Below, in pieces: positions 10,696-17,214 of a stretch of DNA of 17,414 nt. Each line of letters starts with the position of its first letter. Positions within the stretch are counted from its first letter, which is position 1. Source of the DNA: Rhizobacter sp. (GTDB lineage Bacteria; Pseudomonadota; Gammaproteobacteria; Burkholderiales; Burkholderiaceae_C); NCBI GenBank assembly GCA_025351675.1, contig JANXVK010000011.1, positions 1 to 17,414 of the forward strand, in the 5' to 3' direction. The position numbers were made by a program, and so were the translations under genes. The notes under the pieces were generated by a model. It was given only the letters and a program-made list of their open reading frames with translations, was not told where the DNA came from and ran no database searches.

Positions 10696-10936
10696 GGCGA
10701 AATCCCGCCGGCAGAGGAGTGCGAAACGCGCCAGCCATCGACGGGCCCCTGCTCCGGCGATGCCCCGACAGAATCGATCATTCGAGAAGTTTAACTGCCC
10801 TGTGCGCGACAAGCCCCGCAAGCCACTCCAGTTGGGTGATCCGATGTCGACCCACCGCGTGCCTCACGCCTGTCAGGGCTGTGGACTTGCACCACGCGCC
10901 GGGACATCACCGGCTGCAACGGTCACAAGGCGGATC
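10696..10936. other. Intergenic stretch between the ATPase gene and the IS30 end
   Basis: About 240 bp that should hold the promoter of the minus-strand ATPase gene. TTAAAC-like hexamers occur around 10790-10795, but no convincing promoter pair was found. Bases 10873-10936 are read as an accidental tail of the IS30 transposase frame. No IS3-type coding sequence is visible here, although a remnant lies on the other side of the IS30 element. Confidence 0.4.
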
Positions 10937-12334
10937 CAATCGGTCGTCGCAACACTGGGTTGTTGGCCGGATTCCAGGTATTCGTTTATGGCTTCAGTTG
11001 ATGTTTTCCAACCAAGCGTTTTCCGGGGCCTGGTGTTCAGCGCGTGAGTGACAGCTTGGATCTCTTGGGCGGTCCACCGTGAGAGGTCGGTGCCCTTCGG
11101 GAAGTATTGCCGCAGAGGGCCGTTGGTGTTCTCGTTCGTGCCGCGCTGCCACGGGCTGCGAGGAGCTGCGAAGAAGACCTTCACACCGGACTCACTCGTG
11201 AACCGGGCGTCGTCGGACAGTTCCTTGCCGCGGTTCCATGTCAATGACCGCCACAGCCGGGTAGGCAGAGCCTTCACGGTGTCTTTGAGCGCATTGGCCA
11301 TGGCAACGGCGCCATAGCCGGCTAGCGCGGGACCGTTCTTCGTGGGCGGAACAAGCCCGTAGATTTTCTCGCGAGGCAGGTGCACGAGACTGGTGAAGCG
11401 ACTTGATCGCTCGACCAGCGTTCCGATTGCGGACCGGTTCAACCCGACGATCAGATTCCCCTCCCAATGTCCGGGCACCGATCGGTCTTCCACTTCTGCG
11501 GGGCGGTTGGAGATCATCACCTCTTCGCTGACGTGTGCCCATGCCTTGGCCTGAGCCCTCGCCCGCGGGACGCGCAGCGCCCGCCCACGCCGCAGGCAGC
11601 CGACCAGCTCGCGTTTGAGAGCTCCTCGGCCTTGAATGTAGAGGGCCTGGTAGATGGCTTCGTGTGAGATACGCATGGACTTGTCATCCGGGAAGTCGAC
11701 CTTCAGCCGGTTGGTAATCTGTTCGGGCGACCAGCCATTGACCCATTGACGGTCACCGCGATGCGGCTTGTTGCGACCCTTGAACGGTGCCTGCTGGGGG
11801 CCCGCAATCTCACGGCCATCACCATCATGGATCTTGCCGGCCAAGCGGTCCTGGACGTAGTGATGCAGCCGGGGGTTGGTCACCAGCTTTGCTGGCTTCG
11901 GTCTTTTGGCCACCAGTTCCGCCTTCCACTGCGCGACTGACGCCCGATATTCGAGCTTGCCGCCGCGGGTCGCTGCGTTACGCCGGAGCTCCCTTGAGAC
12001 CGTCGACGGGCTGCGTTCGATGCGGCGAGCAATCTCGCGCACGCCGACGTCTTGGGCCCAGAGCAGCCCGATTTCTTCCCGCTGCGCGAACGACAGGCAT
12101 CTCCCGCACATGGGTCTCGACATAAAAAAGTGGCATGCTGCCACGATGGCGGAACCAGCGTGCGCCAACCACTGGCGACATGCCGACCGCCTCGGCAGCC
12201 TTCTCGCTCGTGATGCCGGTCGCAACCTGTTCCCAGAATCGTCGTTCGATCTCGCACCGAAGCGAGGGCGCACTTGGCGAGCGCATTGCTCCTCGCCCTG
12301 TCAACTTCTGCATCCACCCTGCGGGTCGTCCCAT
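10873..12334 (-). pseudogene. IS30-family transposase, frameshifted, catalytic Asp residues replaced
   Basis: The gene starts at ATG 12334 with GGAGG five bases upstream (MGRPAGWMQKLTGRG). The helix-turn-helix part is in this first frame up to a run of six T on the coding strand (12124-12129). The rest, from CLSFAQREEIGLLWAQDVGVRE to the end, is one frame over. Removing one T joins the two into an uninterrupted protein of about 486 codons whose junction matches the remembered family length. The DDE core is intact in outline, but GHWEGD reads GHWEGN (codon 11455-11457) and TWDRG reads TWNRG (codon 11233-11235). The Glu in RGTNENTNG is kept. The frame also overruns the element end by about 21 codons to a stop at 10873. 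All three faults point to a dead transposase. Confidence 0.85.
10937..10955 (+). repeat. IS30 terminal inverted repeat, transposase 3' side
   Basis: CAATCGGTCGTCGCAACAC pairs with the repeat at 12354-12372 with one mismatch. The transposase codons VATTD lie inside it, and the frame runs out through the tip because the next codon is TGG rather than a stop. Confidence 0.85.
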
Positions 12335-12353
12335 AAACACCTCCATGATTCAG

Positions 12354-12372
12354 GTGTTGCGACGACCGGTTG
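12354..12372 (-). repeat. IS30 terminal inverted repeat, transposase 5' side
   Basis: On the plus strand it reads GTGTTGCGACGACCGGTTG, the inverted copy of 10937-10955 with one mismatch. The transposase start codon at 12334 and its ribosome site lie just inside. Confidence 0.85.
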
Positions 12373-12692
12373 CATACGCCCGGTTCACGAGTAGCGCGTT
12401 TACCGGGCTGCTACACGGGCACGGCATCCGCATCTCGATGGACGGCAAGGGCAGCTGGCGCGAGAACGTGTTCATCGAGCGGGTGTGGCGCTCGATCAAA
12501 TACGAGGAGGTCTGCTTGCATGCCTGCGAGGCCGTGAGCGCCGCCCGCGAGGGCATCGGCCGCTACATCAACTTCTACAACACGCGCCGGCCGCACTTGA
12601 GCCATCCGGCCCGAGCCCCGGACGTGGTGTACGTCGCATCGCTGCATCAGCCTTCGGGCGACGCAGCCCGATCCCGCAGGGTCCACTTGTAA
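12373..12692 (+). pseudogene. IS3-family transposase OrfB, C-terminal fragment
   Basis: About 106 codons remain, ending in TAA at 12690-12692. The reading frame continues upstream through the IS30 end only by chance. Recognisable stretches are FTSSAFTGLLHGHGIRISMD, then GKGSWRENVFIERVWRSIKY, which carries the final catalytic Glu of the DDE triad in FIER, and GRYINFYNTRRPH near the end. The two catalytic Asp regions are gone, so the fragment cannot be active. It directly abuts the IS30 terminal repeat, suggesting IS30 landed in or deleted up to it. Confidence 0.85.
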
Positions 12693-14510: not shown

Positions 14511-15110
14511 ATGGACATGACCCGCGTTGAACTTTGCAAGGAAGGCCCCCGCGGTGACGGCGTGAGCCCGTTGCCGGCGGCGCTGATCGCCGATTTGCGC
14601 ACCGATCATGCGGGCGAAAGCGGCGCAGCGATGATCTACCGGGGCATCCTCGCCGTCACCCGCAGCGGCAGGGTGCGTCAATTTGCAAGCGAGCACCTCG
14701 CGACCGAGGCCAGCCACCTGGCCGCTATCGAGGCCCTGCTGCCGCGACGACAACGCAGCCGGCTGCTGCCGCTGTGGCGCATCTCGGGCTGGCTGTCCGG
14801 CGCGCTGCCAGCGCTCGTTGGGCCGCGCGCTGTTTACGCGACGATTGAAGCGGTCGAGACCTTCGTCGATCACCACTACGCCGAGCAGATCGAGTCGATC
14901 GACCAGCAAGGTGCTGCGAGCACGCACCCAGCATTGCAGGCACTGCGCGCGCTCCTGCAAGCCTGCCGCGCTGACGAAGTCGCACATCGCGATGAAGCCG
15001 CCGCACTTTTCGCCATGGCCGGGCAGCCGCCCACCCTGGCGATGCGTGTGTGGTTGTGGTTGGTCGGTGCGGGCTCGCGCGTGGCGGTGACGATCTGCCG
15101 CCGGGTTTGA
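14511..15110 (+). CDS. coq7: Coq7-type demethoxyubiquinone hydroxylase
   Basis: This di-iron monooxygenase adds the hydroxyl group to demethoxyubiquinone, the penultimate step of ubiquinone synthesis, on the inner face of the membrane. The product is 199 aa, the usual length. The iron-ligand pattern of the ferritin-like fold is complete: DHAGESGAAMIYRG (first Glu), EASHLAAIEAL (ExxH), EAVETFVDHHY (third Glu), and ADEVAHRDEAA (ExxH). A hydrophobic C-terminal stretch probably touches the membrane. ATG at 14511 has GGAG 10 bases upstream; a second ATG two codons on is equally possible. The stop overlaps the ubiG start (TTTGATGATG), so the two are coupled. Coq7 is the usual hydroxylase in many betaproteobacteria; whether another copy exists elsewhere cannot be told here. 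Confidence 0.93.
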   Translation: MDMTRVELCKEGPRGDGVSPLPAALIADLRTDHAGESGAAMIYRGILAVTRSGRVRQFASEHLATEASHLAAIEALLPRRQRSRLLPLWRISGWLSGALPALVGPRAVYATIEAVETFVDHHYAEQIESIDQQGAASTHPALQALRALLQACRADEVAHRDEAAALFAMAGQPPTLAMRVWLWLVGAGSRVAVTICRRV

Positions 15111-15884
15111 TGATGGCACTCGACAAACCCGCCACGCTGCCGATCAGCACCATCCGCGACGCCGAAGTCGCGCGCTTCGACCGTCTGGCGGCAACCTGGT
15201 GGAACAGTGAAGGGCCAATGCGCCCGCTGCACGTCATCAACGCGCTGCGTCTCGGCTACGTGCTCGAGCAGATCGGTCGCTGCTTCAAGCGCCCGGTCGG
15301 CGACCTGCGCGAGCTGCGCATCGCCGATATCGGGTGCGGTGCAGGCCTGATGTGTGAGCCCTTGGCCGCTCGCGATGCGCGAGTCGTACGTGGATGCCGC
15401 TGCGAAAAATATCGCGGTCGCGCAGCGGCACGCGGGCATCGGCCGACTGAGCATCGACTACCGAATTGGTGATGTACAGGCTGCACTGCACGATGACGAC
15501 TGCTTCGACGTGCTTCTTCTGCTCGAAGTGGTCGAGCACGTCGACAACATGCACAGCTTCGTGCGCGAGGCGGCGCGTCATCTCAAGCCCGGCGGTCTGA
15601 TGCTGGTTTCGACGATCAACCGTACGGCGCGCAGCTTCGTGACCGCCATCGTTGGCGCCGAGTACGTTTTTCGTGTGCTGCCTCGAGGTACTCACCAGTG
15701 GGCGCAGTTCGTTCGGCCCAACGAGCTGGAGAACGCCGCTGAAGCCGGTGGACTGAAACTGCATGACCGCCGCGGCATGCAATATCTGCCGGTTCTCCAT
15801 CGTGCCTGGTGGACGCGCGACCTGTCGGTCAACTACATCGCGAGCTTCACCCGCGGAGTCGCCGAGGACGAGCCGAAGATCTAG
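15110..15884 (+). pseudogene. ubiG: UbiG-type ubiquinone O-methyltransferase, frameshifted
   Basis: UbiG methylates two hydroxyls of the ubiquinone ring using S-adenosylmethionine. The first frame, from ATG 15110 (or 15113), gives family sequence FDRLAATWWNSEGPMRPLH and the SAM-binding motif IADIGCGAGLMCEPL. It then leaves the family at about 15383-15392 and stops at 15472. The next frame takes over exactly there: VDAAAKNIAVAQRHAG, LLEVVEHV, HLKPGGLMLVSTINR, AIVGAEYVFRVLPRGTHQW, SVNYIASF, to TAG at 15884. Family spacing (usually ARVTGID) suggests two bases were lost within or just before the strand carrying the SAM-ribose acidic residue. It overlaps coq7 by one base. As written, no full enzyme is made. 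A sequencing error is a real alternative because both halves are otherwise well conserved. Confidence 0.88.
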
Positions 15885-15893
15885 ACGCGTCCG

Positions 15894-16286
15894 TCAGACC
15901 AATCTGACGAGTACGAAGCCTGCCGCCGCCACATGGGCCAGCGTGATCGCCACCGAGAGCCCGTGGAGCCACTTGAACTGACGTCGCTGGCCACTGTCGG
16001 TCGCACGGTTGATGGCAGGCATCAGGGCCTGCTTGGTCGGTACCGTGGTGACGGCCACCAGTGCCATGAGCGCAGCCGACAACCGGTCGTGCGGCCACAG
16101 GAATGCCGAAGCCAGCATCGCTGTGGCGATCACGAACAGATAGAAAAGCGGGAATGCTCGGCGCAATGCCAAGCCTGCCGTGTCGGCTGGGAGGGCCGTG
16201 AACAAGAACGCTGCAAAGCCGAACGAGTAAAGCGTCATGCCGCCGAAAAGCAGCGCCGTGAACAAGACCGCCACAGACAGGGTCAT
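15894..16286 (-). CDS. DUF4149 family four-helix membrane protein
   Basis: This 130-aa protein is almost entirely hydrophobic, with four predicted membrane helices at about 4-30, 44-63, 68-84 and 108-128. The last is preceded by the motif FKWLHGLSVAI, typical of the DUF4149/TMEM205-like group as I remember it. The function of the family is unknown. ATG at 16286 is preferred over the upstream GTG at 16298 because GAGG lies six bases before it. It is convergent with ubiG (nine bases between stops) and divergent from the rhodopsin gene, sharing a 175-bp AT-rich control region with it. That layout suggests co-regulation with the rhodopsin. Confidence 0.8.
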   Translation of the reverse strand: MTLSVAVLFTALLFGGMTLYSFGFAAFLFTALPADTAGLALRRAFPLFYLFVIATAMLASAFLWPHDRLSAALMALVAVTTVPTKQALMPAINRATDSGQRRQFKWLHGLSVAITLAHVAAAGFVLVRLV

Positions 16287-16461: not shown

Positions 16462-17214
16462 ATGGAAACGATCTCCCTCGGGCAATTCAGCCTTGTCTTC
16501 AACGCGTTCTCCTTCACGATTGCCGTGATGGGCGCAGCCTCCGTCTTTTTCTTTTTGTCGCGTTCGCAAGTAGCGCCGCCTTATCGAACCGCGCTCACCA
16601 TCACCGGCCTCGTGACGCTGATCGCGTTCTATCACTACCTGAGAATTTTCAACAGTTGGGAAGGCGCGTACGCGTTGGTCGACGGTGCGATGAAACCTAC
16701 CGGGGCTCGCTTCAACGATGCCTATCGATACGTCGACTGGCTGCTGACCGTGCCGCTGCTGCTGATCGAACTCATTCTCGTGATGCGCTTGTCACGCGCT
16801 GAAACCGTCGCCAAAGCAACCAAGCTCGGCCTGCTCGCAGCCTTGATGGTGATACTCGGCTACCCCGGCGAGATTTCGTCCGATTCCGGTACGCGCTGGC
16901 TGTGGTGGGGGCTCGCGATGATCCCTTTCGTCATCATCGTTTACGACCTCTTCGTTGGCTTGAGGAATTCGATTGCCTCGCAACCTGAAGGTGCCAGGGG
17001 GCTTATCAGCGCGGCTCGCTGGCTGACCGTGGTGTCCTGGCTGTTCTACCCGGTGGTGTTCGTGTTCCCGATGATCGGGTTGTCAGGCGGTACAGCGACC
17101 ACGGCGGTGCAGATCGGCTACACAGTGGCGGACGTCGTGGCGAAGGCCGTGTTCGGCGTCCTGATCTTCATGATCGCTGTGCGCAAGTCCGAGGTTGAAA
17201 CGGCCTCTCGTTGA
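16462..17214 (+). CDS. Xanthorhodopsin-clade light-driven proton pump
   Basis: This seven-helix retinal protein should pump protons outward across the inner membrane on illumination. It is 250 aa. Key residues: helix C RYVDWLLTVPLLLIEL with acceptor Asp92, Thr96 and donor Glu103 (the DTE pattern of proton pumps), His58 in AFYHYLR pairing with Asp92, and retinal-binding Lys228 in DVVAKAVFG. Leu100 at the colour-tuning site predicts green absorption. LGQFSLVFNAFSFT, FNDAYRYVDWLL and LGYPGE place it beside Salinibacter xanthorhodopsin. However, GTRWLWWG in helix E has Trp149 where xanthorhodopsin has Gly156, closing the carotenoid fenestration. ATG at 16462 gives the normal N-terminus; the frame is open upstream, but that DNA is the control region. 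The ribosome site is poor. A crtI-like gene follows after 68 bp. Confidence 0.96.
   Translation: METISLGQFSLVFNAFSFTIAVMGAASVFFFLSRSQVAPPYRTALTITGLVTLIAFYHYLRIFNSWEGAYALVDGAMKPTGARFNDAYRYVDWLLTVPLLLIELILVMRLSRAETVAKATKLGLLAALMVILGYPGEISSDSGTRWLWWGLAMIPFVIIVYDLFVGLRNSIASQPEGARGLISAARWLTVVSWLFYPVVFVFPMIGLSGGTATTAVQIGYTVADVVAKAVFGVLIFMIAVRKSEVETASR

Follow-up and report, generated by a model that had tools for sequence, protein, structure and literature searches.

A xanthorhodopsin subgroup II-like rhodopsin of Rhizobacter sp., a predicted proton pump with tryptophan at the position of the antenna glycine

A rhodopsin gene in a 17,414-nucleotide stretch of Rhizobacter sp. DNA (contig JANXVK010000011.1; hereafter, the window) very probably encodes a light-driven outward proton pump of xanthorhodopsin subgroup II in which retinal is the sole pigment. 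The sequence of the protein (P0001), its alignment, the gene order in its relatives and the conservation across its branch were observed; pumping, its outward direction, a lack of carotenoid binding and retinal as the end product in the host cell are inferred from relatives. In the proposed mechanism, light would isomerize the retinal on Lys228, Asp92 (with His58) would accept the Schiff-base proton, and Glu103 would return it; in such pumps, the acceptor role of the Asp/His pair and the donor role of Glu are well established. Trp149 on helix E would fill the space beside the retinal ring that is left open by Gly156 in Salinibacter xanthorhodopsin (XR), and Met153, Phe200 and altered helix-F residues would reshape the remainder of the carotenoid slot. 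Owing to this filling and to the changed slot residues, it is proposed that no carotenoid ring could dock, and the crt gene behind the rhodopsin gene would make the carotenoid precursor of retinal. The Trp at the position of XR Gly156 (XR156) is neither new nor peculiar to the host organism: a point published in 2013 is restated here for one more member.

Rhodopsin gene, pump residues and carotenoid site

The reading frame of P0001 (Table 1) closes with a single terminal stop and, in the list of open reading frames (ORFs), extends upstream to position 16237 (325 aa). Position 16462 was taken as the start because it yields 249-250 aa, the length of most homologues among the best 120 of 7739 matches. 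P0001 matches PF01036 (Bac_rhodopsin) in a profile search (E 2.2e-42; 145.5 bits, cut-off 24.6) and XR (3ddl) in a phmmer search (E 6.8e-75), values at which chance can be set aside; an NCBIfam search of the protein assigned no family. The PF01036 score above the cut-off and the Schiff-base lysine K228 identify it as a type 1 rhodopsin, and its best solved relatives in phmmer are psXR, XR (3ddl), GR and Kin4B8, the last of which was reportedly introduced in a 2023 Nature paper.

The alignment comprised the query, 80 other genome loci, 120 best-listed database proteins (the query being one of them) and five solved references (XR, GR, psXR, Kin4B8 and TR). The loci are the best 80 of 366 retrieved with six peptide patterns derived from the query (one of them covering the Trp motif), and the proteins are the best 120 of 7739 matches among 8000 scored candidates, so that both samples are biased towards the query. 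Initially, 85 loci were compared; the five outside the count of 80 are the query's own locus (L001), L002 and L085, which gave no tblastn match, and L083 and L084 (24-25% identical), which represent another rhodopsin type. P0001 possesses all of the pump residues (H58, D92, T96, E103, D224 and K228), and the same H-D-T-E-D-K set is found in 79 of the 80 loci and in all 120 best-listed proteins, query included. The match of the single exception, L060, covers residues 3-212 and thus stops before D224. The first-pass annotation, which had proposed a xanthorhodopsin-type pump with H58, D92, T96, E103 and K228 kept, named every checked residue correctly, and the family matches and the conserved pump set agree with its prediction.

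In the phmmer alignment to 3ddl_A, XR residues R152-G153-L154-W155-G156 lie opposite R145-W146-L147-W148-W149 of the query. XR numbers were counted in the printed alignment (V109 ... G156), and the MAFFT mapping agrees (XR 153 to query 146, XR 156 to query 149). Both alignments thus bear out the earlier reading of Gly156 as Trp149 and of Gly153 as Trp146, with no Gly at the 156-equivalent position, whereas all five solved references have Gly there. According to the available portions of two reports, Gly at this position is the primary criterion for a carotenoid site (PMC12308411) or its definer, Trp being present in many other rhodopsins (PMC13093654). In particular, a bulkier residue at Gly153 of Kin4B8 blocks zeaxanthin, and Tyr207, a further important residue, is described as conserved in every known carotenoid-binding rhodopsin (PMC12308411). 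Antenna-bearing proteins (subgroup I and the Kin4B8 type) are expected to have Gly at XR156 and Tyr at XR207; P0001 has Trp149 and Phe200. Altogether, 17 XR positions were tabulated, namely those named in papers or adjacent to such positions; a list of 16 carotenoid-contact residues by Imasheva et al. is cited in PMC3646047. At XR positions 160, 194, 197, 198, 201 and 205, the query has M, W, V, V, L and V versus T, L, L, A, G and I in XR; as GR and Kin4B8, both carotenoid binders, also differ from XR at 194 and 198, not all six slot positions are informative.

Table 1. Positions of the rhodopsin gene, selected codons and the adjoining gene in the window
Feature	Position	Strand	Basis
Rhodopsin P0001, xanthorhodopsin subgroup II-like proton pump (predicted), 250 aa	16462..17214	+	PF01036 match, solved relatives, tree
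Trp146 codon, opposite XR Gly153	16897..16899	+	phmmer and MAFFT alignments; position = 16462+3*(146-1)
Trp149 codon, opposite XR Gly156 (GR Gly178, Kin4B8 Gly153)	16906..16908	+	phmmer and MAFFT alignments
Met153 codon, opposite XR Thr160	16918..16920	+	MAFFT alignment; Met in 60/60 Trp-type and 13/20 Gly-type loci
Phe200 codon, opposite XR Tyr207	17059..17061	+	MAFFT alignment; Phe in 55/60 Trp-type and 8/20 Gly-type loci
Lys228 codon, retinal Schiff-base lysine	17143..17145	+	phmmer alignment; K in 79/80 loci, remaining match stops short
crtI (phytoene desaturase), N-terminal 44 codons, cut by contig end	17283..17414	+	matches CrtI of L004 and L003

Distribution of the tryptophan and its branch in the trees

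At XR156, Trp is found in 60 of the 80 loci and in all 120 best-listed proteins, and the remaining 20 loci have Gly. Even in a query-biased sample, a Trp type that makes up 60 of the 80 nearest loci means that a protein called xanthorhodopsin-like by overall similarity need not carry a carotenoid antenna. At XR153, the Trp-type loci have Trp (56) or Phe (4), and the full pattern Trp153-Trp156-Met160-Phe207 (XR numbers) occurs in 55 of the 80 loci and in 119 of the 120 best-listed proteins. Met160 and Phe207 are not limited to the Trp type, since 13 and 8 of the 20 Gly-type loci, respectively, carry them, and 11 of these 20 are half-way forms with Trp at 153, Met at 160 and Gly at 156. The presence of the Trp pair in many independent contigs rules out a sequencing or alignment artefact.

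The first-pass annotation had also proposed a tree with XR, GR and homologues. Such a tree was built from 91 rows (the 80 loci, the query, five further proteins and the five solved references, the latter set as outgroup by choice) after removal of the 156 column. A single branch separates 66 Trp rows from 25 Gly rows (support 91/87); of 200 bootstrap trees, 92% require no more than one Gly/Trp change. The smallest well-supported group that contains the query numbers 10 rows, every one with Trp, and the query rhodopsin is nearest to Burkholderiales-labelled bins. The record titles of the Trp rows name Pseudomonadota, Acidobacteriota, Verrucomicrobiota, Gemmatimonadota, Armatimonadota and Chloroflexota, of which some may be wrong because most of these rows are metagenome bins. 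One contig titled as a Klebsiella pneumoniae MAG (L006) encodes a rhodopsin that shares 79% identity with the query and falls among the Burkholderiales-labelled ones; the title probably stems from an error in binning or naming. In the same tree, a group adjoining the Trp branch is made up of 12 Gly-type loci (L058, L064, L067-L073, L075, L080 and L081), all with Met at XR160; at XR153, 11 have Trp and one has Phe. They are natural intermediates in which it could be asked whether Gly156 alone gives a carotenoid site. Likewise, the natural Trp-Gly-Met and Trp-Trp-Met types (XR 153/156/160) could reveal the costs and benefits of an antenna site for a proton pump, an issue already raised by mutant work on GR (PMC9151804).

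A second tree of 98 rows included three distant outgroup rows (two proteorhodopsin-like and one bacteriorhodopsin-like, labelled by eye). There too, a single branch sets apart the 68 ingroup Trp rows, but its support is weak (68/80). The outgroup branches measure 3.3 to 10 changes per column, a length that makes the root untrustworthy; when the outgroup rows are counted, one of which also has Trp, the Trp label needs two changes, and none of the bootstrap trees gives one. What the trees bear out is that Trp at XR156 is old and shared across the branch. Gly rows on both sides of the Trp branch suggest that Trp is derived, and the evidence leans, on an unreliable root, towards an old loss of the antenna glycine rather than towards its never having been present.

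Two xanthorhodopsin subgroups, I and II, were distinguished by Vollmers et al. (2013). According to the consulted sections of that paper, subgroup II mostly has Trp at XR156, differs at positions 160, 194, 197, 198, 201 and 205, has the opsin gene beside retinal-synthesis genes, lacks crtO, includes a cluster of marine eukaryotic members and was judged unable to bind keto-carotenoids (PMC3646047). P0001 resembles it in having Trp at XR156, as in the majority of the subgroup, all six altered slot positions, the pump residues and, in its relatives, retinal-synthesis genes beside the opsin gene. Moreover, the query groups with the Octadecabacter-labelled bin L069 against XR and GR in the 91-row tree (78-row group, 87/84), and in the second tree both are split from the rows on the XR/GR side (94/94, ingroup rows). 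The placement is effectively unrooted, and L069 stands in for the published subgroup II accessions. XR (3ddl) and GR (6nwd), both of subgroup I, share the sequence family and the pump residues with the query; they have Gly156/178, Tyr207, Thr160 and a carotenoid slot, whereas the query has Trp, Phe and Met at these positions.

Proton pumping in E. coli, without salinixanthin bands, is documented for two Octadecabacter subgroup II proteins, the bacterial members measured by Vollmers et al.; unlike P0001 with its Trp149, both have Gly at 156 (PMC3646047). The sources drawn on here, as far as their available text extends, show pumping by no bacterial Trp-type member. The closest experimental parallels to Trp149 come from another report, in the portions available: the G178W substitution in GR abolishes carotenoid binding and increases stability and pumping, the rhodopsin of the dinoflagellate Pyrocystis lunula, with Trp at the GR178 position, pumps about 2.6 times as much as GR, and 24% of 150 GR homologues have Trp at this position (PMC9151804). 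In contrast to the query, the former derives from a subgroup I protein by a single substitution and the latter is eukaryotic; both are outside the rows of the trees.

Retinal supply and host genome

CrtE, CrtI, CrtB and CrtY make beta-carotene, which Blh cleaves to retinal. The 44-codon crtI start downstream of the rhodopsin gene matches CrtI of L004 (2.7e-11) and L003 (1.1e-10), both of which lie directly downstream of a Trp-type rhodopsin gene; the 44-aa fragment alone matches no Pfam family, and the CrtI ORF of L003 is assigned to Amino_oxidase/NAD_binding_8. Past the rhodopsin gene, the order in L003 is crtI-crtB-crtY and that in L016 (Glaciimonas) is crtE-crtI-crtB-crtY-blh, and in L018, a Trp-type locus, and the Gly-type loci L077 and L082, blh lies after the rhodopsin gene. 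One or more of crtE, crtI, crtB, crtY and blh was found in the fetched flank of 51 of the 60 Trp-type loci (47 within 300 bases downstream) and of 15 of the 20 Gly-type loci (13 within 300 bases downstream). In nine of the 60 Trp-type loci, none of these genes was found in the fetched flank, and three of these nine contigs end no more than about 200 bases from the rhodopsin gene. These numbers are lower bounds, because the rough ORF list behind them (at least 120 aa, overlapping ORFs removed) failed to include even the rhodopsin gene in 6 of 81 loci. Since retinal genes are about equally common beside Gly-type loci, antenna-less and other types cannot be told apart by their neighbourhood. The first-pass annotation saw a tension between the missing antenna site and the carotenoid gene next door. 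This tension dissolves, as crtI in relatives is part of a retinal-supply cluster (crtE/crtI/crtB/crtY/blh) and, in the nearest ones, opens a crtI-crtB-crtY run of retinal precursor genes; the neighbouring crtI is thus no argument for an antenna.

The host assembly consists of 675 contigs (3.64 Mb, 82% complete). A search of it for blh was blank, as were the 14 controls; moreover, the assembly is incomplete to the stated degree, and crtI is cut by the contig end. For squalene/phytoene synthase, the genome yielded just one pair of matches, located on another contig, and matches to lycopene cyclase are weak and mostly short (10 places, best E 8.1e-6), none being a clear crtY.

Among 299 genomes sampled from the family (own included), no other comparable rhodopsin was found, the next best match being 36% identical. 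The SecD protein encoded by the rhodopsin contig shares 84-92% identity with the full-length SecD of seven of the nine other genomes of the genus; of the remaining two, one has a partial copy (89%) and one gave weak partial matches only. This identity rules out a misbinned contig; the contig fits the genus, and the rhodopsin gene is sporadic and was probably acquired, most likely already with Trp, given that no other sampled family genome has a P0001-like gene above 36% identity. In one genome of the genus (G002), coq7-like and DUF4149-like stretches lie together, with no rhodopsin gene in the 1.5 kb beyond, an arrangement that, on thin evidence, fits an insertion of the rhodopsin gene.

Two further features of the window were observed. 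About 4 kb from the rhodopsin gene lies a transposase-like ORF with an HTH_38 domain (10873-12273, minus strand; IS30-like by eye), overlapped by a shorter ORF (12135-12692, plus strand) that by eye resembles a fragment of an IS3-type integrase. A ubiG-like methyltransferase region (15050-15884) is split into two overlapping frames (15050-15472 and 15354-15884), of which the second alone matches methyltransferase profiles; it is either a disrupted gene or an assembly error.

Alternative readings and a second rhodopsin

That P0001 binds a carotenoid by another route despite a shut Gly156 window, such as a hydroxylated carotenoid lying against the outside of helices E and F, might be argued from the adjoining carotenoid gene and from the flexibility of a family in which XR, GR and Kin4B8 use different carotenoids (PMC12308411, available portions). 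This reading is nevertheless very improbable: Gly156 and Tyr207, the key residues in the same source, are both replaced in the query, Trp at the GR position blocks binding (PMC9151804), and the neighbour genes recognised, with a probe set lacking ketolase and hydroxylase, serve the synthesis of beta-carotene and retinal. A sensory rather than a pumping role has a precedent in Sphingomonas AAP5, whose Gly-type xanthorhodopsin is described as sharing an operon with a histidine kinase (PMC7762795, in the part available). However, the acceptor and donor carboxylates are retained in P0001, and no adjoining kinase or transducer was found among the window genes scanned, the contig ending 200 bases downstream; such a role would be quite unexpected. 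There is a similarly slim chance that the Trp-type branch, with its near-fixed Trp146, Trp149, Met153 and Phe200, has done more than close the carotenoid window and uses the aromatic wall to bind another pigment or a lipid that tunes or feeds the retinal.

Least probable of all is a recent, lineage-specific loss, in which the near ancestors of P0001 bore an antenna and the change from Gly to Trp was recent. Gly-type rows do stand on the other side of the Trp branch in both trees. However, Trp occupies the whole of the nearest group, all 66 Trp rows lie on one side of that branch in the 91-row tree, and the survey of the family indicates that the gene most likely arrived with Trp. A recent local loss was accordingly rejected, as Trp is common to the whole branch in the 91-row tree. 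The first-pass annotation had suggested a member of the antenna-bearing clade that had lost, or never had, the antenna site. Its closed site is supported, as judged from sequence and by analogy with mutants; a local loss is not, since Trp is shared by a branch spanning several phyla by record title. A subgroup II pump with retinal as its sole pigment remains the preferred reading of P0001.

The host genome also contains a second rhodopsin gene (L002:698-1408; G000:C75:698-1408), with relatives in L083, L084 and L085. These four rhodopsins have Q or L at the K228 position and G or A in place of the acceptor Asp. The lysine-less rhodopsin gene is followed by a flotillin gene (Band_7 and Flot) and, in L083, is preceded by a BPD_transp_2 permease gene. 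Of the 10 genomes of the genus, 4 carry an L002-type gene (60-100% identity), the host's among them; a P0001-like pump was not found in the other three. The single additional match in a set of 100 relatives (G458, 36%) may represent a different type of rhodopsin. The L002 gene resembles the lysine-less, flotillin-associated rhodopsins of freshwater bacteria, for which, according to the accessible part of that report, it could not be determined whether the genomes hold other rhodopsins (PMC10308929). The bin analysed here holds both the pump P0001 and the lysine-less paralogue.
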